Positions 2,983-12,742 of a DNA stretch of 64,000 nt are shown here, piece after piece (position 1 is the stretch's first letter; every line of letters starts with the position of its first letter). The notes under the pieces are model-generated. The model saw only the letters and a program-made list of their open reading frames with translations. It was not told the origin of the DNA and made no database searches. Source of the DNA: Phascolarctobacterium sp. (lineage in GTDB: Bacteria > Bacillota > Negativicutes > Acidaminococcales > Acidaminococcaceae); the NCBI RefSeq assembly GCF_030531065.1, contig NZ_JAUNOQ010000002.1:125953-189952 (forward strand), read 5' to 3'. A program made the translations under genes and the position numbers.

Positions 2983-3915
2983 TTGGAATTAGATACCTAC
3001 CGTAACTTTCTTGCCATAGTTGAAGCAGGCAGCTTTACCGGAGCCTCCGATTATGTGCATATCGCTCAGCCGGCGCTGAGCAAACAGCTGCGCAATCTGG
3101 AAAACTACTTTGGCGCCAAGCTGATCCTCACCCAGCGCGGCAGTCGTCAGATTCTGTTGACCGAAGCGGGACGCGCCCTTTATCAGAAAGCAAAATATAT
3201 GTGCTCGCTTGAGGACCTGGCCCGCAATGAAATTGAAAATATCATGGGCGGCGTTATCGGCACGCTGCGCTTCAGCATCGCCAATTCCCGCTCGCCCGTT
3301 TTCATCGAATCCTCCCTCAAGGGCTTCTGCCAGCTGTATCCCAATATAAAATGCGAGCTGTACGAAGCAAGCATCAACGAGCAAAGCCAGCAGCTGCTCA
3401 ACGGCATTACGGAGCTTGGCATTTTCAGCGTTCCCGTCAATCACCAGGACAATTTTGAAGTACTGTTCCGCCGCGACGAGGAACTAGCCGCCGTTTTTCA
3501 TCACGAGTCTGTTTTTTTAGAGGACGATAAGCCCTGCGTCGGGCTCAAGGAACTGCATAATGTTCCCATCAGCCTTTCCGCCGGGTCTGCCGATATCTTC
3601 CTCAAGGGCTGCGAGCAGGCGGGAGTTATGCCCCGCGTCACCTGCGTCAGCACCACGCGCAGCACGGCGCTGGCCTGGACGCAGGTTAAGGCGGCTATTT
3701 CCATTGTCCCAGTAGAGCCGGGCGAAGATTTGGGCGAAGGCTTCGTTATCAAAAAGATAGCCGACCTGAACGCCGACGTCTATAAAACCGTAGTCAAGGT
3801 CAAGGACCGCCCGCTGTCCGTAGCGGCGCAGCATTTTCTGCGCTTCTATGCCCGCACCCGCGGCAGCCAGCAGGTGTGCGACTTGGACGCATTGCTAAAA
3901 AACGAAATCCTGTAA
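2983..3915 (+). CDS. LysR-family transcriptional regulator
   Basis: A 310-residue LysR-type regulator. The N-terminal winged helix-turn-helix is clear: ELDTYRNFLAIVEAGSFTGA then HIAQPALSKQLRNLE (about residues 2-45). The rest is the periplasmic-binding-like effector domain, with GVIGTLRFSIANSRSP starting its first lobe. I chose the TTG at 2983 because TTGGAGGTG forms a strong ribosome site seven bases upstream; a TTG at 2968 would place that site inside the gene. It is divergent from the two small-protein genes and the SLC13 transporter, the usual layout for a LysR activator and its targets. A terminator follows at 3954. Confidence 0.9.
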   Translation: MELDTYRNFLAIVEAGSFTGASDYVHIAQPALSKQLRNLENYFGAKLILTQRGSRQILLTEAGRALYQKAKYMCSLEDLARNEIENIMGGVIGTLRFSIANSRSPVFIESSLKGFCQLYPNIKCELYEASINEQSQQLLNGITELGIFSVPVNHQDNFEVLFRRDEELAAVFHHESVFLEDDKPCVGLKELHNVPISLSAGSADIFLKGCEQAGVMPRVTCVSTTRSTALAWTQVKAAISIVPVEPGEDLGEGFVIKKIADLNADVYKTVVKVKDRPLSVAAQHFLRFYARTRGSQQVCDLDALLKNEIL

Positions 3916-4728: not shown

Positions 4729-6111
4729 TTATTCCTGCGACAAACGCGCTTCGTGCTGCAAAAGTACGAAAGGCAGCTGCTTATGCAGCTCCCGCCCGGC
4801 GTCCACCAGATTTTCACCGGCCGCCTGAATATTGCCCGCGCCCGGCGCTACCTTACGCCCCAAGCTGCTCATAGACAGCATCCGCCCCTGCTTATCGAAC
4901 AGCGCCTGCTCCAAGGTTAAATACCAGCCGCTGTCGTTGCGCTGACGGCTGCCGTCGATGCCGCAAATCAAAACGTAATCCGCGCCCGCATAACGGCTCA
5001 GCTGCACAAGATCCTGCTCCGCATAGGCCTCCTGTCCCAGCGCTTTGTCCATCACTACATAGGACGGCAGCATCCGCTTATACTCGTCGGTCAGGAAGCG
5101 TTTCAAATCCACAACCGTCGCCACCTTATGCAAGCGCGCGGCTTCGTTGATCCACAGCGCCACCACCGGTTCGTCCCTGGTTATTTTCGTATCCGGCGCA
5201 GGATACAGATGTCCCTGCGCCACCTCTTTATCAAACGCCTCATACAATTCGCTGACGCTGTAATCAAAATACATCGCCATATCGTGCTGCATGCTGCTCA
5301 ATTTAGGCGACAATCTGTATTTAATATGCCGCCCGAACTGCTTATAGCCGCCGAAAAAAGTTTGCAGGCTGCCTGGCACCGGGTCGGCAGTATTGGTAAT
5401 GCGCAGCAAATTAACAGCCGCGCCGTATTCCTGCACAAATTCCTCGTTGCCCACGGCAGGAGCGCCAAAGGTAACGATGGTAAATTTATCCTTGGGCAAG
5501 CCCAGGCTCACCAGACGCTCGCCCAGCAGCGTCGCCGCCGCGCCGCCCAAGCTGTGCCCCGACAAAACAAGGTAAGCGTCGCCGTCCTCCGCCGCCGCTT
5601 TAAACACGCCTTTGAGCTTACCGGCTTCATCCAGCACGGAACTGCGCAGCACCGCGTTCACATAGCTGTTGAAGCCCTCGTGTACGGCCGGCGCCTTTTC
5701 CCGCAAAGGCTTCGCGGCCAGGGCCTCCATCGCAGCCAAATCCGCGCCGCCAAAATTTACCTTCTGCGTTTGCAGGTTGACGCCCCAATCCTTTTTGCTG
5801 GCGCTGCCGCGAAATGTGACTAAAAAAACGCGCTTCTGCAGCTCAGGAAAATAATTGCGGGCGATAATGAAATTAGTTTCCACTTTGTCTTCCGCATAAG
5901 TTTGCGGCGCCAGCTCCCAGCCGTAGCTGCGCAGATAGCTGAATTCCGTAGAGCTGTCCGGCAAATATACGCCCAAGCACGACGCCGCCGCGACAGTCGT
6001 AAAATATTTATCGATATACTCCCGACTGACGTTCGGCACAGCAGCAGCCGCCGAAGCAACCCACAGTAATAAAGATAATAACAGCAAACATATTCTGCCT
6101 GACTTTCGCAT
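4729..6111 (-). CDS. Secreted lipase, class 3 alpha/beta hydrolase
   Basis: A 460-residue exported esterase or lipase. A classic Sec signal peptide opens the protein (MRKSGRICLLLLSLLLWVAS then AAAA, cleavage near residue 24). The class 3 fold is marked by TFRGSASKKDW (oxyanion-hole strand), the nucleophile elbow LSGHSLGGAAA and TFGAPAVGNEEF; NTADPVP offers the catalytic Asp, and a His in FGRHIKY or further on may complete the triad. About 200 residues follow the catalytic core and are of unknown role. There is no lipobox, so it is periplasmic or released. The ATG has a GGGAGG site. A promoter is visible at 6155-6182. Confidence 0.85.
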   Translation of the reverse strand: MRKSGRICLLLLSLLLWVASAAAAVPNVSREYIDKYFTTVAAASCLGVYLPDSSTEFSYLRSYGWELAPQTYAEDKVETNFIIARNYFPELQKRVFLVTFRGSASKKDWGVNLQTQKVNFGGADLAAMEALAAKPLREKAPAVHEGFNSYVNAVLRSSVLDEAGKLKGVFKAAAEDGDAYLVLSGHSLGGAAATLLGERLVSLGLPKDKFTIVTFGAPAVGNEEFVQEYGAAVNLLRITNTADPVPGSLQTFFGGYKQFGRHIKYRLSPKLSSMQHDMAMYFDYSVSELYEAFDKEVAQGHLYPAPDTKITRDEPVVALWINEAARLHKVATVVDLKRFLTDEYKRMLPSYVVMDKALGQEAYAEQDLVQLSRYAGADYVLICGIDGSRQRNDSGWYLTLEQALFDKQGRMLSMSSLGRKVAPGAGNIQAAGENLVDAGRELHKQLPFVLLQHEARLSQE

Positions 6112-6154: not shown

Positions 6155-6182
6155 ATTATAATCCACTTTGACTAAAAAACAA
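6155..6182 (-). promoter_or_regulatory. Promoter of the lipase gene
   Basis: Minus strand: TATAAT (6155-6160) with TTGTTT 16 bases upstream (6177-6182). The -35 element falls inside the direct repeat copy at 6174-6198, i.e. in the T-run of a broken terminator. Confidence 0.55.
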
Positions 6183-6198
6183 GAGCCGACGCGCTGCG
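6174..6198. repeat. 25-base direct repeat, copy 1 (left of the ATPase gene)
   Basis: Six A, one C, then AAGAGCCGACGCGCTGCG. An exact second copy lies at 7618-7642, so the ATPase gene is bracketed. This copy has the T-run and 3' arm of a terminator (minus strand) but not the matching 5' arm. Confidence 0.9.
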
Positions 6199-6199
6199 T

Positions 6200-7513
6200 T
6201 TAGTCCAAACAAAAATCCAACGCTCTGATTATTTTTATTCCGTCCTGTGTCTGAATAAATTCGCAATCCAAAGCAATAACAATTTTTTCGTAGCTGTCTC
6301 GAATTTTACGCAACGGGCTTAGCTCCCGTTCCCGCGTTTCCGGAGCGTTCATCGATTCAGTGACCTGGATATATTTTTTCTCGTCCGCTTTGGTAGCGAT
6401 AAAGTCAACCTCCTGATTGTCTATTTTCCCTATAGCCACATCATAACCACGGCGCAGCAATTCAAAATAAATGATATTCTCCAAAATATGTCCGCTGTCG
6501 CCATCACGATACCCCAAAAGATAATTTCGCAAGCCAATATCCACAATATAATATTTGCCAAGCGTACGCAGGTATTCCTTACCCTTAATATCAAAGCGCT
6601 TGATTTCATAAAAAATATAGGCTTCTGTCAGCGCTTCAATATACGCCTGAATCGTTTGTACGGCAGGCTTCGTCTTGCGAGCTCCGTTCGCCAAAAGCCC
6701 CTCGTTGACTAAAGTATTGCCAATAGACGTAGCGGAAGTATTATTGCCAATATTGTAGGCCAAAAATAAAATAATTTTTCTCAACAGTACCGGGTTAGTA
6801 ATATTTCTCTGCCCTTTTCTCTTTTCCCGTTCCAAGATATCGTTGACCACAGCCGCAGAATACACGCCGTCTAAAGCCGCTGCTACCTTATCGATTTCCA
6901 AGCCTACGTCCGCCAGCATCGGCATGCCGCCAAATTTCACATAAGCGTCAAACAGCTCTTTGACCTCATAGGTTTCGCCGTTCATATCCGTTATTCTCTT
7001 TTTGACGCCTCCGGCCGGCGACCTTCGTTCTGTCAGGATATATCCATGAAATTCCAAAAATTCCTTAAATGATAAGGGCAGCATCTTGATCTCCACATAG
7101 CGTCCGGAAAGGTAAGTGGAAAGCTCGGAAGAAAGCAAATAAGCATTGGAACCTGTAATATATATATCGCAATCAAAATCAACCCGAAATGCATTGACCG
7201 CCTTTTCCCAGCCGGACACCTGCTGCACCTCATCAAAAAAAAGGTAAGTGCGTTTCTTCGGACAAACGCGCGCTTTAATATATTCATAAAAGCCTCTCGC
7301 ATCCATATCGGGAATAGTCATAGACTCAAAATTGATTTCGATAATTTGTTCCTCCGTCACTCCGGTATCCCGCAAATGCTCTGCCATCAGCTTCATCAAG
7401 CTGGACTTACCACAACGGCGTATACCGGTGACGACTTTAATCATTTCAGTATCCTGAAACGCTATAAGACGCTTCAAATATAGATCTCGTTTACGCAAAG
7501 CAGTTTTTTTCAT
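6200..7513 (-). CDS. AAA ATPase with DUF4143 domain (AAA_14 type)
   Basis: A 437-residue ATPase of the AAA_14/DUF4143 group, found as isolated accessory genes in many bacteria and archaea; function unclear. Walker A is VVTGIRRCGKSSLMK (about residue 27), Walker B is YLFFDEVQQVSGWEKAV, and SGRYVEIKMLPLSFKEFLEF is the typical stretch leading into DUF4143. The C-terminus (NQEVDFIATK, then KYIQVTES) resembles the PD-(D/E)XK-like fold seen at the end of these proteins. It is less GC-rich than its neighbours and is bracketed by an exact 25-base direct repeat, both signs of insertion. A candidate promoter (TTGAAA, 17 bases, TATTGT) lies just upstream. Confidence 0.85.
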   Translation of the reverse strand: MKKTALRKRDLYLKRLIAFQDTEMIKVVTGIRRCGKSSLMKLMAEHLRDTGVTEEQIIEINFESMTIPDMDARGFYEYIKARVCPKKRTYLFFDEVQQVSGWEKAVNAFRVDFDCDIYITGSNAYLLSSELSTYLSGRYVEIKMLPLSFKEFLEFHGYILTERRSPAGGVKKRITDMNGETYEVKELFDAYVKFGGMPMLADVGLEIDKVAAALDGVYSAAVVNDILEREKRKGQRNITNPVLLRKIILFLAYNIGNNTSATSIGNTLVNEGLLANGARKTKPAVQTIQAYIEALTEAYIFYEIKRFDIKGKEYLRTLGKYYIVDIGLRNYLLGYRDGDSGHILENIIYFELLRRGYDVAIGKIDNQEVDFIATKADEKKYIQVTESMNAPETRERELSPLRKIRDSYEKIVIALDCEFIQTQDGIKIIRALDFCLD

Positions 7514-7617
7514 AAAGGAGACCCCCCTTCACTTAAAACAATAACATAAACTCTCAAAAATTTCAAGTTTATAGAATCAATACCATAAACTTTTGCTTCG
7601 AAGAAGTTTCTAACGAC

Positions 7618-7642
7618 AAAAAACAAGAGCCGACGCGCTGCG
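7618..7642. repeat. 25-base direct repeat, copy 2 (right of the ATPase gene)
   Basis: Identical to 6174-6198. This copy overlaps an intact terminator and contains its T-run, 3' arm, loop and first bases of the 5' arm, so it looks like the original site. Confidence 0.9.
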
Positions 7643-7649
7643 CCAGCTC
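7624..7649 (-). terminator. Terminator of the Ugp-like transporter operon
   Basis: On the minus strand GAGCTGGCGC, loop AGC, GCGTCGGCTC gives a 10-pair stem (two G-T pairs), followed by TTGTTTTTT. It ends the operon whose last gene is the TIM-barrel protein at 7671. Confidence 0.85.
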
Positions 7650-7670
7650 CTTTTCTTCATTATTATATAT

Positions 7671-8426
7671 TTATAATTTGTACGCTTCCTTCAGTTCGGC
7701 GATGTGCCGCGCCAGCGCTTCCGTTCCGTCAAAGCCGCAGCTGTATTCCAGCACCTGCGCCGCCTGGGGCGCATACTCTTTTACGGCGGCAAAGTAAGCC
7801 TGCCAGTCGATAGTTCCCCGTCCTACCGGCAAATGCTCGTCCCCCGCGCCGCTGTTATCGTGAATATGGCAGGCCTCCAGCCGCGTGCCCAAAGCCCGCA
7901 CCGTCTGCGCCAAATCCCAGCCGTTGACATGGGCGTGACCTGTATCCAGCAGCGCGCCCGCTTGTGGAAAAGTTTTAAACAGCGCCAGATATTCTTCAAA
8001 GTCAAACAGCACGTTGCCCTTCGTCCGCAGGCCCACGTTTTCAATGAGCAGCCGCACATTACATTCAGCGGCCAGCTCCAGCAGTTCGCCTAAACGGCGC
8101 TGTACCAGCAGCTGCGTCTGAAGCTTAGCGCCCCGCCAGCCTTCGTTAGTATGCGCCACCACAAAGCCCGCGTTAATTTTGGCCGCATAAGCCAGCGTCG
8201 CTTTAAAAGCCGTCAAATAATGCTTATCGTCGGCGTCGGCCAGATTAACGGCCACGCAGGGGCCGTGGATGGACAGCTCCCGCCGCCCCCAGGCGGCCGT
8301 CTCTTCATCCCAGTAATAGTCCTTGCCAAATTCGTAAAAAAATTCAATGCCGTATTCCGGCGGCAAAGAACGCAAAGCATTTTTTGTAAAGCCTGCAAAC
8401 AGCAGGTCGCTGACCTCAAAGCGCAT
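7671..8426 (-). CDS. Sugar phosphate isomerase/epimerase-like TIM-barrel protein
   Basis: A 251-residue protein of the xylose isomerase-like/AP endonuclease 2 superfamily. Metal-site motifs expected for the fold are present: VVAHTNEGW, LLIENVG (Glu ligand), GALLDTGHAHVNG (Asp and His ligands) and CHIHDNSGAGDEHLPVGRG followed by IDW. This superfamily includes sugar isomerases, epimerases and endonuclease IV; the motif layout favours the isomerase/epimerase side. The ATG directly abuts the stop codon of the ABC ATPase gene, so it is the last gene of the importer operon and probably acts on the imported compound or its product. Substrate unknown. Confidence 0.8.
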   Translation of the reverse strand: MRFEVSDLLFAGFTKNALRSLPPEYGIEFFYEFGKDYYWDEETAAWGRRELSIHGPCVAVNLADADDKHYLTAFKATLAYAAKINAGFVVAHTNEGWRGAKLQTQLLVQRRLGELLELAAECNVRLLIENVGLRTKGNVLFDFEEYLALFKTFPQAGALLDTGHAHVNGWDLAQTVRALGTRLEACHIHDNSGAGDEHLPVGRGTIDWQAYFAAVKEYAPQAAQVLEYSCGFDGTEALARHIAELKEAYKL

Positions 8427-9527
8427 TTACTTACCTCCCAGCTCCAAATTGATTCCCGTATCCGCATCAAACAGGCACACGTTCTCCCAGGCAAAATCAA
8501 AGCCGCGCACAGCTTGTAAATCGACGCCGGGGTCGCTGCATTGCAGATAAAAAACAGAACCGTCCGCCAAATGCAGCGCGGCTGTTTTCAAATTACCGGT
8601 GTTTTCAACGAAATCCGCCTTACCGTTTATCATACCACTATCAAAGCGCGCCTGGCAAGCCTCCGGACGCAGGCCGAACAAAACCTTATTGCGCGGGCCG
8701 ATAAGCTCCAGCTTATCCTGAGGCAGCCGCACAGCGCATTGCCCTGCAATCAGCATGCCGTTCAAAACGTCGGCAGGCAGAATATTCATAGCCGGCGAGC
8801 CGATAAACCCGGCGACAAAGGTATTAGCCGGGTGATGATAAATATTATACGGCGTATCGATTTGCTGAATGCATCCCTGATGCATAACCGCAATACGGTG
8901 CGCCACAGTCATAGCTTCGATTTGGTCGTGAGTAACGTAGACCATAGTCGGCTTAAACATTTCGTGCAGCTTCACCAGTTCCGTCCGCGCTCTCTGCCGC
9001 AGCTTGGCGTCCAGATTTGATAAAGGCTCGTCCAGCAAAAAGTAGGGCGACTGCTTCACTAAAGCGCGGCACAGAGCAACGCGCTGCTTTTGGCCGCCGC
9101 TCAACTCGTGGGTCTTTTTATTTTCGTAGCCTGCAAGGTGCAAAATTTCCATAGCCTGACGGGCGCGGGACTCAATTTCCCTCGGCGGCAGCTTTTGCAG
9201 CTGCAGGCCGAAGGTAATATTTTCCCATACCGTCATGTGCGGGAACAAAGCGTAGCTTTGGAAAACCATCGCGATATTGCGCTCGCCGGGCGCTACGTCG
9301 TTGACCACCCGGCCGCCCATAAATAATTGCCCGCCGGAAATTTCTTCAAAGCCGGCGATCATGCGCAGAGTCGTCGTTTTGCCGCAGCCGGACGGCCCCA
9401 AAAGTATCAGGCGCTCGCCCCGCTTAATTTCTAAATTTAAATCTTTAATGACTTCCGTCTTGCCGTAAGATTTATTAACATGGGAAAAAATTATACTGTA
9501 TTCGTTGTCTTTGACTGCATTATCCAT
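8427..9527 (-). CDS. ABC importer ATPase, UgpC/MalK type
   Basis: A 366-residue ATPase that powers the binding-protein-dependent importer encoded next to it. Walker A LGPSGCGKTTTLRMI, Q-loop VFQSYALFPHMTV, signature LSGGQKQRVALCRAL, Walker B YFLLDEPLSNLDAKL and switch His in YVTHDQIEAMT are all intact. After residue 240 comes the C-terminal OB-like regulatory domain of MalK/UgpC ATPases. It lies between the permease genes and the TIM-barrel gene, with a 4-base gap to the permease gene. MalK and UgpC cannot be separated by eye; the nearby glycerol-related genes make UgpC attractive but not certain. Confidence 0.9.
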   Translation of the reverse strand: MDNAVKDNEYSIIFSHVNKSYGKTEVIKDLNLEIKRGERLILLGPSGCGKTTTLRMIAGFEEISGGQLFMGGRVVNDVAPGERNIAMVFQSYALFPHMTVWENITFGLQLQKLPPREIESRARQAMEILHLAGYENKKTHELSGGQKQRVALCRALVKQSPYFLLDEPLSNLDAKLRQRARTELVKLHEMFKPTMVYVTHDQIEAMTVAHRIAVMHQGCIQQIDTPYNIYHHPANTFVAGFIGSPAMNILPADVLNGMLIAGQCAVRLPQDKLELIGPRNKVLFGLRPEACQARFDSGMINGKADFVENTGNLKTAALHLADGSVFYLQCSDPGVDLQAVRGFDFAWENVCLFDADTGINLELGGK

Positions 9528-9531
9528 AGCT

Positions 9532-10368
9532 TTATCCTTTCACGCCCGCCTGCATAAACGTATTGATAATAAATTTCTGGCAGAAAATATACAGCGCCAG
9601 CGGCGGCAAGCTGGTCAGCGTCGCCACCGCCATCGCCACGCCCCACTCGCTGCCGCCCTCCGCGCTGATAAACATTTGCAGCGCTAACGGCAGCGTCAGG
9701 TTAGCCTTGTCCTGCAAAATCAGCAGCGGCCAGAAATATTCGTTCCAGCTGTTAATAAAAAAGAGAATCGCAATCGCCAGTACCGACGGCTTAATCAGCG
9801 GCGCGACAATTTTCGTCAGCACCTGCCACGGCTTGGCGCCGTCTAAAATCGCGGCCTCCAGCAACGGTTTGGGAATGCTGCGCATGGTCTGCCGCATCAA
9901 AAAAATACCCATGCCGTCGGCCAACCCCGGCAGCATAACGCCGTAAGGCGTATCCAAAAGTCCCAGCTTCGCCATCAGCAGATAATTGGGCATCACCAGC
10001 ACGGTAACGGGAATAAAAAATGTCAGCAGCATGCCGTTGAAAATCGTTTCTTTATATTTAAAATCGTAATAGACAAAGGCGAAAGCCGCCAGCACGCTGG
10101 TCAGCGCCTTGCTCGCCGTAACGACGGCCGCAATGAAGAAAGTGTTCCAAATATATGTCAGCAGCGGAAAGCCCTCCAGCACGTTCAGATAATTGCTCAA
10201 TGTCGGCGGCCACGGCAAAGGGTTCAGCGTCGATTCAAAAACCTGGTTCAAATCCTTCAGTGAAGTGGACAGCATAAAAACGATGGGCCACAGCATTAGA
10301 AAAACCGCGATAAGCAGCAGCCCGTGCCAAAGAATTTCTTCACGCCAGCCTTGCAGTTTAGTTTTCAT
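9532..10368 (-). CDS. ABC importer permease, UgpE/MalG type
   Basis: A 278-residue inner-membrane permease of the carbohydrate ABC importer family (CUT1). Six membrane segments are apparent. The cytoplasmic EAA loop reads EAAILDGAKPWQVLTKIVAP, which contacts the ATPase. The C-terminus ends in FMQAGVKG, typical of MalG/UgpE proteins. It overlaps the partner permease gene by 11 bases, so the two are translated together as a heterodimer. Confidence 0.9.
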   Translation of the reverse strand: MKTKLQGWREEILWHGLLLIAVFLMLWPIVFMLSTSLKDLNQVFESTLNPLPWPPTLSNYLNVLEGFPLLTYIWNTFFIAAVVTASKALTSVLAAFAFVYYDFKYKETIFNGMLLTFFIPVTVLVMPNYLLMAKLGLLDTPYGVMLPGLADGMGIFLMRQTMRSIPKPLLEAAILDGAKPWQVLTKIVAPLIKPSVLAIAILFFINSWNEYFWPLLILQDKANLTLPLALQMFISAEGGSEWGVAMAVATLTSLPPLALYIFCQKFIINTFMQAGVKG

Positions 10369-11236
10369 AGTACACCTTCTTTTCCAAATACTTGCTCTTG
10401 AATAACAGGAACAGCAGGTAGCAGACCATCGTAATCACAGCGTAAGCGGCGCTGCGCCCCGTCTGGAAAAAAGTAAAGGCGTACTGATAAATGATATACA
10501 CCAGATTAGAGCTGCCTTGGTCGGGGCCGCCCTGCGTCAGCATATTCACAGGCACCAGCACATATTGCAGGCCAAAAACCACGGTGATAGTAAAAACGTA
10601 AATCGCCGTGGACGAAGTCATGGGTAAAATAATTTTTTTGAAAATTACCCAGTTAGAAGCGTTTTCCAATCTGGCCGCTTCAATCATCTCTTTAGGAACC
10701 GCCACCATAGCCGCCAGCATGACGATTAAATTGTAGCCGAAAACTTTCCAGCCGATAATCGTACAGATAGCGAAAATTACCAGATAATCCTCTTTGAACC
10801 AGCGCGGCGAGCCTAAAGAAAACCAGCTCAGCACAATATGCAGCGGCCCGGCCAGCGGATTATAAATCCACAGAAAAAGAATGCTGGCCACCGCCAAGGA
10901 CAAAGTGGACGGTAAAAACAGCGCCGAACGGTAGAAAGCGGTAAAGCGCCGCACCACATGACCTAAAATATAGGAATAAACATAGGGCAGCACAAAATTC
11001 AGCGCCAGCATAATCGCCACAAACAGCGCCGTATTCAGCAAAATTTTCAGCAGCTCGGCAGAAAATAAAATCGCGGTAAAATTTTCCAGTCCCACAAAAG
11101 TCATCTGCGGGCTGACCATATTCCAGGAAAAAAAGCTTAAATAAATATTCTGCAGCAGGGGCCAGTAATAAAATATTACAAACAGCAGCGCCGCCGGCAG
11201 CAGATATAACGCGGCTTCGCGGTTATTCTTATTCAT
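10358..11236 (-). CDS. ABC importer permease, UgpA/MalF type
   Basis: A 292-residue inner-membrane permease, partner of the gene at 9532. The N-terminus (YLLPAALLFVIFYYWPLLQN) is the conserved first membrane segment of UgpA/MalF-type permeases, and EAARLENASNWVIFKKIILP is the EAA coupling loop. It lacks the long periplasmic insertion of enterobacterial MalF, which fits UgpA-like systems better. A stem-loop at 11272-11294 separates it from the solute-binding protein gene. Confidence 0.9.
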   Translation of the reverse strand: MNKNNREAALYLLPAALLFVIFYYWPLLQNIYLSFFSWNMVSPQMTFVGLENFTAILFSAELLKILLNTALFVAIMLALNFVLPYVYSYILGHVVRRFTAFYRSALFLPSTLSLAVASILFLWIYNPLAGPLHIVLSWFSLGSPRWFKEDYLVIFAICTIIGWKVFGYNLIVMLAAMVAVPKEMIEAARLENASNWVIFKKIILPMTSSTAIYVFTITVVFGLQYVLVPVNMLTQGGPDQGSSNLVYIIYQYAFTFFQTGRSAAYAVITMVCYLLFLLFKSKYLEKKVYYEN

Positions 11237-11271
11237 GATATCTCCTTTTACGGGCTAAACGGTTATAAAAA

Positions 11272-11294
11272 GAACGCCGCGCGAGGCGGCATTC
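11272..11294 (-). terminator. Partial terminator between binding-protein and permease genes
   Basis: Minus strand: GAATGCCGC, loop, GCGGCGTTC then TTTTT. Located directly after the solute-binding protein gene, it probably lets most transcripts stop there so that binding protein is made in excess over permeases. Confidence 0.7.
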
Positions 11295-11344
11295 CTAAAC
11301 AAAACGCTTATTGAAAACAACTGCGAGGGGAAAGCAGCAATCTT

Positions 11345-12643
11345 TTACAGCAGCTTATTGATTTTTTCAGCGGTTTGGTGCAGCGCGTCGGCAGCAGTCA
11401 TTTTGCCGCTGAGGATAATATCGCGGGCGTCAATCAAAAGCTGCTCGGCCTGCAAGCCGTTGGCACCGGGGAAGCTGGCCCATTTCGTCACCTTAGCCAT
11501 CTGCTCCAAAGCCATTTTAATATTGGGGTTTTCATCCGCCAGCTTCTTGAAGCCCTGCGGATCGTCGGCTACGCCCTTGCGCGGCGGCAGATAGCCCGTG
11601 CCCGTGCTCCACTTAGCCAAGGCTGCAGGAGATTCCAGATATTTAATAAATTCTACGGCAGCTTTTTGCTTTGCGGCGTCCTTGGAGAAAACCATTAGGA
11701 AATTGCCGCCTGCGGGAATCTTAACCTCTTTGCCGTTAAACGCCGGGAAAGGAGCGGCCTTTACGTTAAACTTAGCGGCCTTTTCAAAATTGGCGCGCTT
11801 ACCGATAGTAGTGCAGACCATGCCCAGCTTGCCGCTCAGATAAGCCTGAAAGCCTTCTTCATTGGTAGCGTGCAGCCCGCTGCCGTCCTTCACCATATCG
11901 GCCAGCATCTGGTAAGCCTGCGCCGCTTCCGGCGTATCGAAACCGGCTACGGTTTTGCCGTTTACTTTTTTCAGCATCTGGCCGCCGTTGGACTCGATCA
12001 AGCCCTGCTGCGTCCAGTTATCGGCGTATTCCTGCATAAAGAAGCCCATATTACCGGTTTTTTCTTTAATCTGCTTAGCGGCCGCCATAACCTCGTCCCA
12101 GGTTTGCGGCGGTTTATTGGCGTCTAAGCCTGCTTTTTGAAAAATTTCCGGATTATAAAACAGTACCGGCACGCTGACGGAATAGGGCAGGCCAATCTGT
12201 TTGCCGTCCTCGGTCTGCGCCAGCTTCAAGACGTTGGGCAGGAAGTTGTCCTGCATAAAATTAGCGTCGCCCGCTTCCTTAAAGGCCACGTTCAAATCGG
12301 TGTACTTCAAATTTTCCGCAGCGTAGTTCAGGAAGGAGTAGCCCATTTGCACCACGTCGGGATTTTTGCCGGAAGCCATCGCTGCCTGCAAATTCTGCGT
12401 CAGGCCCTTGTACATATCGGGATTATATTTTTCTACAACTTCAATGTTCGGATGCGTTTTATTAAAATCGGCTACCAGTTCTTTTACCGTAGCGCCGCCA
12501 AAGCTTTCGGCAGCTACGTGCCAATATTCAATCTGTACTTTCTTGCCGCTGTCGGCGTTTTTCTTTTCGCCGCCGCAGCCGGTTAAAGCCGCTGCCGCCA
12601 GCAAAGAAATCATGCCCACGGCCAAAATCTTTTTCAATTTCAT
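11345..12643 (-). CDS. Solute-binding lipoprotein of a Ugp-like ABC importer
   Basis: A 432-residue extracellular solute-binding protein, family 1. It starts with a lipoprotein signal (MKLKKILAVGMISLL then LTGCGG; Cys 23 is the lipidation site). The mature N-terminus (IEYWHVAAESFGGATVKELV then FNKTHPNIEVV) is typical of CUT1 binding proteins and resembles UgpB. I prefer the ATG at 12643, ten bases after GGAGG, over the ATG at 12652, which sits against that site. First gene of the importer operon. Glycerol 3-phosphate or a glycerophosphodiester is a reasonable ligand given glpK and a glycerophosphodiesterase 14-19 kb away, but other sugars remain possible. Confidence 0.85.
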   Translation of the reverse strand: MKLKKILAVGMISLLAAAALTGCGGEKKNADSGKKVQIEYWHVAAESFGGATVKELVADFNKTHPNIEVVEKYNPDMYKGLTQNLQAAMASGKNPDVVQMGYSFLNYAAENLKYTDLNVAFKEAGDANFMQDNFLPNVLKLAQTEDGKQIGLPYSVSVPVLFYNPEIFQKAGLDANKPPQTWDEVMAAAKQIKEKTGNMGFFMQEYADNWTQQGLIESNGGQMLKKVNGKTVAGFDTPEAAQAYQMLADMVKDGSGLHATNEEGFQAYLSGKLGMVCTTIGKRANFEKAAKFNVKAAPFPAFNGKEVKIPAGGNFLMVFSKDAAKQKAAVEFIKYLESPAALAKWSTGTGYLPPRKGVADDPQGFKKLADENPNIKMALEQMAKVTKWASFPGANGLQAEQLLIDARDIILSGKMTAADALHQTAEKINKLL

Positions 12644-12742
12644 ACTTTTCATGCCTCCATTAATACAATAAATTTTGAACTATCTTTATTGTAAAGGAAG
12701 AATGTTAAATCCGAAACAAGAGTATGTAAAATGAAAGTAAAA

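Follow-up and report, generated by a model that had tools for sequence, protein, structure and literature searches.

A PDC-S01 ATPase gene between two copies of a terminator end in Phascolarctobacterium: a probable single-gene cassette

The window, that is, the whole 64,000-nucleotide stretch of Phascolarctobacterium DNA analyzed here, contains an AAA_14/DUF4143 ATPase gene of the PADLOC family PDC-S01 that lies between two identical 25-base direct repeats at the terminator of a Ugp-like operon. We consider it probable (about 0.6) that the gene is a horizontally acquired single-gene PDC-S01 cassette that was inserted into this terminator with duplication of the target. In particular, an insertion leaving a copy of the target on each side is well supported by sequence comparison, because the repeat is unique in the genome, the boundaries are shared with related copies and sister loci hold one copy. 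The features that define the proposed insertion are as follows (ORF, open reading frame; HMM, hidden Markov model).

6174–6198, plus strand: left repeat copy, a 3' arm and T-run orphaned from the operon terminator, starting +2 past the ATPase stop codon (repeat search, genome count)
6199–7617, minus strand: proposed inserted unit, promoter/operator plus ORF, repeat copies excluded (repeat search, comparison with related copies)
6200–7513, minus strand: 437-residue AAA_14 plus DUF4143 ATPase, PADLOC PDC-S01 (HMM searches, structure model)
7618–7642, plus strand: right repeat copy, within the intact terminator (repeat search, folding)
7625–7651, minus strand: intrinsic terminator of the Ugp-like operon, a stem-loop that remains whole on this side of the target (12 pairs, −22.9 kcal/mol)

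Direct repeat and terminator at the proposed insertion site

The two copies, at 6174–6198 and 7618–7642, are identical in 25/25 bases and in direct orientation, as stated in the initial annotation of this DNA. A third copy is absent from the window with up to three mismatches allowed, and none arose in 100 shuffles. In the whole 2.37 Mb genome a 24-base version of the repeat has exactly two sites, again with up to three mismatches; no opposite-strand match was found genome-wide, and a reversed control sequence also gave zero. The repeat is not the dispersed genomic sequence that the initial annotation had named as its own counter-case.

The right copy supplies the 3' arm and T-run of the strong terminator of the Ugp-like operon, which forms a 12-pair stem on the minus strand (7651–7625; −22.9 kcal/mol, z −4.5). 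The left copy retains the 3' arm and T-run without the 5' arm and folds weakly (−11.0 kcal/mol, z −1.2). Both descriptions had been given earlier and hold. The additional claim that the left copy supplies the −35 element of the lipase promoter is not supported: the promoter scan gives no such site, and the nearest candidate by eye is TTGTTT, with 3/6 matches.

Between the repeat copies the ATPase gene is the sole ORF with a family match, and neither a transposase nor an integrase is present, in agreement with the initial annotation. The repeat search found no inverted pair at the ends of the inserted unit, and the ORF list and domain search revealed no transposase gene inside it; the unit thus lacks both the terminal inverted repeats and the enzyme of a DDE-type insertion sequence. 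The direct repeat does contain the 3' end of the terminator, as in integrative elements. The genes on either side, both assigned by domain search, are given below.

4729–6111, minus strand: lipase class 3 gene, downstream of the insert
7671–8426, minus strand: xylose-isomerase-like TIM barrel gene, the last gene of the invaded operon

The proposed inserted unit, its promoter region and its product

The insert spans −104 to +1, comprising the ORF and a promoter region of about 104 bp, with an edge one base past the stop codon. Where related copies occupy unrelated sites, their shared DNA breaks off at about −38 to −123 on one side and at 0 to +8 past the stop codon on the other, and the ends of the window insert agree with these boundaries. 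Related pairs at different sites are 92% (L101/L106), 89% (L147/L148) and 86% (L131/L139) identical (L numbers denote the sequence stretches compared, and G numbers below denote genomes). In several unrelated copies the right edge lies +1 to +12 from the stop codon.

The nearest protein relative of the window ATPase (81% identity) is in an Oscillibacter metagenome-assembled genome, while the nearest in other genomes of the window's own family has 66% identity; this sequence comparison supports a horizontal origin of the cassette. Since the best paralogue in the window's own genome reaches 64%, the cassette appears to move between lineages with no sign of amplification in this genome. Searches of E. 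coli genomes for relatives gave zero matches.

The promoter scan predicts the ATPase promoter at 7566–7538, and two candidate binding sites accompany it.

7565–7592, minus strand: palindromic operator-like site AAGTTTATG..CTATAAACTT, adjoining the −35 element of the predicted promoter (once in the genome)
7545–7553, minus strand: additional half-site GAGTTTATG in the promoter spacer, downstream of the palindrome (read from the upstream alignment)

The palindrome, AAGTTTATG N9 CTATAAACTT, occurs a single time in the genome. A palindrome or paired half-sites lie upstream of many family genes, and the half-site is common to window-clade copies in Clostridia, Spirochaetales and Synergistaceae. Upstream inverted repeats scoring at least 10 were found for 44/144 family genes and 15/300 control ORFs, after removal of genes without a recognizable Walker A motif or start. 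The ATPase may therefore regulate its own expression through its palindrome.

The ATPase carries the AAA_14 (119.8 bits) and DUF4143 (56.8 bits) domains named in the initial annotation, both above the Pfam cut-off, and belongs to PDC-S01 by a nearly full-length HMM match (PDLC04787, E 4.4e-153, residues 5–436). According to passages of one paper, PDC-S01 is a single-gene phage defence candidate (PDC) of PADLOC and the fourth most common defence across prokaryotes, and most PDCs still await validation (PMC12988326); according to passages of another, no individual locus is more frequent in rumen genomes (PMC13356809). Flanking repeats, operators and cassette boundaries of PDC-S01 go unmentioned in these passages of the two papers. 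A literature search, with most subscription journals and all bioRxiv preprints outside its scope, produced no account of flanking repeats, of operators or of mobility for the PDC-S01/AAA_14/DUF4143 family.

A structure model built from 57 aligned sequences has a mean predicted local distance difference test score (pLDDT) of 88.9. Its residues 1–337 match the archaeal ATPases 2qen (Z 17.8, 269 residues) and 2fna (Z 17.6, 272 residues), as well as plant NLRs, CED-4 and EfAvs5 (Z 12.7 for EfAvs5), and resemble Orc1/Cdc6 in Foldseek; absence of a structure family from the match list is uninformative. The AAA+ plus winged-helix fold like that of 2qen and 2fna is the mark of STAND NTPases, and the protein is predicted to combine a STAND/Orc1-like AAA+ fold, a winged helix and DUF4143. 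The C-terminal part was barely probed by the structure search, and DUF4143 is assigned there by Pfam. PDB sequence searches gave zero matches. While its residues 1–337 are alike in predicted fold to STAND ATPases (2qen, 2fna, NLRs, CED-4 and Avs5), the window protein has about 400 residues, lacks the C-terminal sensor repeats and ends in DUF4143 instead. E345 and D370 are invariant in the ATPase alignment.

Repeats, targets and empty sites across the family

Direct repeats of at least 40 bits flank 14/95 AAA_14-like genes and 6/235 control ORFs in a first set (Fisher, 1e-4), and 21/118 and 11/418, respectively, in a wider, motif-chosen set that overlaps the first (p 5e-8). Genes with fewer than 150 flank bases on a side and repeated proteins were removed before both counts. 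Three of the seven control hits of at least 45 bits (L474, L479 and L469) are AAA ATPases by eye that the motif filter missed, and they were kept as controls. In a pairing test between each gene's own upstream and downstream 140 bp, 11/170 self pairs score at least 22, against 0.13 expected from mismatched pairs; these 11 include the near-duplicates L276/L277, the AT-rich L224 and the window. The repeats of L068 (G047, 54 bp) and L088 (a Spirochaetales genome, 107 bp) have exactly two genomic copies, only flanking the ATPase. Uniqueness is not established for the repeats of L077, L125, L133, L130, L119, L463 and L470, some of which may be dispersed or assembly effects.

The repeats are of two kinds. 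Repeats of the first kind are copies of the 3' end of the invaded gene, which is complete on one flank and an orphan on the other: tRNA-Gly in G022 (45/45 bases), trkH in L088, gnd in G054 (57 bp, 95%), terL in L233 (118 bp, 93%) and, in the window, the terminator. Repeats of the second kind consist of the palindrome that belongs to the gene itself, present in the promoter and again directly past the stop codon (L063:845-2095, L475, L459, L484, L066, L065 and L274/L276/L277; perhaps also L490 and L491). This layout is kept between L063b and L475 and between L066 and L484 (79% amino acid identity in each pair), and the flanks of the loci are unmatched. Single genes flanked by palindromes are also known from RAYT genes with their REP palindromes. 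Family copies resemble these in that the palindromes go with the protein, but RAYTs are HUH Y1 transposases, whereas the window family consists of AAA+ ATPases with DUF4143.

Strong direct repeats were also seen around two non-ATPase genes named by eye: one in a type I restriction-modification (RM) region (L066 3026–4195; 110 bp, 96%) and an AlbA_2-like ORF (L455 4045–5352; 74 bp, 91%).

The initial annotation predicted that an empty site should hold a single copy of the repeat. This is borne out cleanly at the sister locus tRNA-Gly, where G025 has a single 45-bp copy and no ATPase (the corresponding insert of G022 is L071 562–2251), and roughly at the sister locus gnd. There, G043 and G044 hold a single gnd end without the gene, and the native tail past the orphan piece is missing in G054. 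In G045 (L210, about 3360–3460) a decayed ATPase 3' remnant adjoins gnd, a trace of cassette loss. Relatives contained the left flanks of the palindrome-flanked L475 and L484, but the right sides differed or were multi-copy, and no empty site was obtained. No clean empty site was seen in the match rows of the plasmid flank searches, in which partial matches were left unopened.

Proposed origin of the cassette and competing explanations

In the explanation we favour, a PDC-S01 cassette consisting of its own operator, promoter and ORF (6199–7617) would have been acquired horizontally and would have entered the terminator of the Ugp-like operon within its 3' arm. With 25 bp of target then present on each side, the operon would have retained a complete terminator, and an orphan half would have been left past the ATPase. 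The STAND/Orc1-like ATPase with its nuclease-like DUF4143 end may bind its own palindrome and repress its own promoter, and it is a candidate defence sensor. Less surely, the cassette could be a recurrent mobile unit that ends at the operator and the stop codon, and its insertion could duplicate the 3' end of the gene that it enters or, for sister clades, leave the family palindrome at both ends. Regarding the earlier proposal of an insertion that duplicated about 25 bases of its target, the part that stands is the target copy on each side. A fixed-length target-site duplication does not: several repeat pairs differ by 5–19% between copies, repeat length varies across the family, and one relative's pair also encloses an integrase-bearing element.

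Several observations weigh against the favoured explanation, in addition to the lack of amplification described above. No repeat of at least 40 bits was found for 97/118 genes of the wider set, and the repeats extend from 25 to about 140 bp with 69–100% identity. An empty site for the window locus was not found among six other genomes of the genus. Specifically, the Ugp operon of G004 is located elsewhere and does not adjoin the lipase gene, and in G005/G006 the operon and lipase genes are on separate contigs or the lipase side alone was found. In G024 a 15.7-kb stretch and the ATPase lie within the same 45-bp tRNA-Gly pair, of which no third copy is present. This element (L201 8880 to L202 7602, G024:C4) encodes a tyrosine recombinase, a relaxase-like protein and type I RM genes (named by eye), and at this site an integrase is the likelier agent. 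Among 12 inspected plasmid copies, from a family represented in 233 plasmid records, one had a repeat of at least 40 bits, and this was in dispersed-looking sequence. Prophages carry ATPases of two clades between TerL and the portal gene; among 135 TerL relatives, the ATPase is present in L282 alone (the query's own contig), and many others have different inserts or none. The TerL–portal gap is thus a general hot spot in which the ATPase is one insert among many. Finally, the third nuclease motif in the ATPase alignment is Q383-x-T/S. Because this replaces (D/E)-x-K, the nuclease activity of the DUF4143 part, a domain assigned to the PD-(D/E)XK nucleases, is uncertain.

Some further observations concern these loci. 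Between G000 and G004 (L054), the order of the Ugp-like operon (window 7671–12652) and the lipase/uracil-DNA-glycosylase pair is swapped. In G023 a different ATPase lies beside the same tRNA-Gly, with no repeat seen and 22 bp replaced. In the related prophages L230, L231, L233, L236, L239 and L241 (IMG/VR), the TerL–portal gap is a cargo hot spot in which inserts of 0.4–1.9 kb other than the ATPase are common. In the Acinetobacter plasmids L217 and L218 a PDC-S01 relative is at the edge of a BREX island, with a shared block starting about 158 bp upstream of the relative. The Moraxella osloensis plasmids L223 and L228 have a common backbone with a recombinase family gene, followed at the same place by two different family ATPases.

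Phage morons are single genes with their own promoter in gaps between phage genes. Several family loci resemble them, with a single gene between TerL and portal, and the window unit has a predicted promoter/operator and one gene; the window copy is chromosomal, in contrast to morons, and has no syntenic empty relative in the six genus genomes. To our knowledge, morons do not carry terminal palindromes or duplicate a target end.

An unlikely but credible alternative is one-off illegitimate recombination facilitated by homology, a known process (PMC3240628), the term for which also appears in PMC5361080. A donor carrying the target 3' end and the ATPase would have recombined homologously on one side and through a non-homologous joint on the other, orphaning the recipient tail, and the cassette would have no mobility of its own. 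The 5–19% differences between many repeat copies favour this course, as does L235, in which the orphan tail past the ATPase seems in the alignment to derive from a different TerL; in L233 donor and recipient tails were indistinguishable in comparison. By contrast, the window copies are identical, and the functional gnd copy of G054, not the orphan, matches its relative G043 exactly. Moreover, such repeats are rare around control ORFs, and random joints would not be expected to place the right edge of several unrelated copies no more than 12 bp from the stop codon unless selected.

It is improbable that the window copies represent the attL and attR sites of an element that integrated at the terminator through a tyrosine or serine recombinase and lost all but its ATPase cargo. 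Integrative elements, including integrative mobilizable and conjugative elements with a tyrosine recombinase, are typically marked by repeats at the 3' ends of genes for tRNAs and proteins, and some of the family repeats lie at such ends; the G024 element within one 45-bp pair also agrees with this origin. However, no integrase gene lies between the window repeats or was seen by eye in the ORF lists around L088 and L069, and the target of the family differs every time. In addition, the window insert ends at +1 past the stop codon, matching the cassette boundaries elsewhere, so every loss would need to have stopped at the same points.

A bolder version of the favoured explanation, which we regard as speculative and rather doubtful, is that PDC-S01 is an autonomous one-gene mobile element. 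Its STAND-type ATPase would bind palindromes at one or both ends of its own gene and insert the cassette at gene 3' ends with the nuclease-like domain, duplicating a variable 25 to about 140 bp of the target end and thereby sparing the gene that it enters. Such mobility is hinted at most strongly by two features: the right edge falls repeatedly at the stop codon (+1 to +12 in several unrelated copies), and copies in sister clades have a palindrome at each end. It is opposed most strongly by the lack of amplification and by the integrase-bearing element of G024. Lastly, although other ATPases (L125 and L226) are flanked by dispersed-looking repeats, chance similarity or a dispersed repeat is refuted for the window by the two genomic copies and the empty shuffles and is hardly conceivable.

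The boundaries, the family-specific operator-like site and the repeats provide a handle on the spread and control of PDC-S01 genes. From the palindrome one would expect a DNA-binding site, which is testable in vitro, and from the boundaries the DNA that sister strains should lack. If the genes were indeed autonomously mobile, that mobility would account for the spread of one of the most common candidate defence genes.
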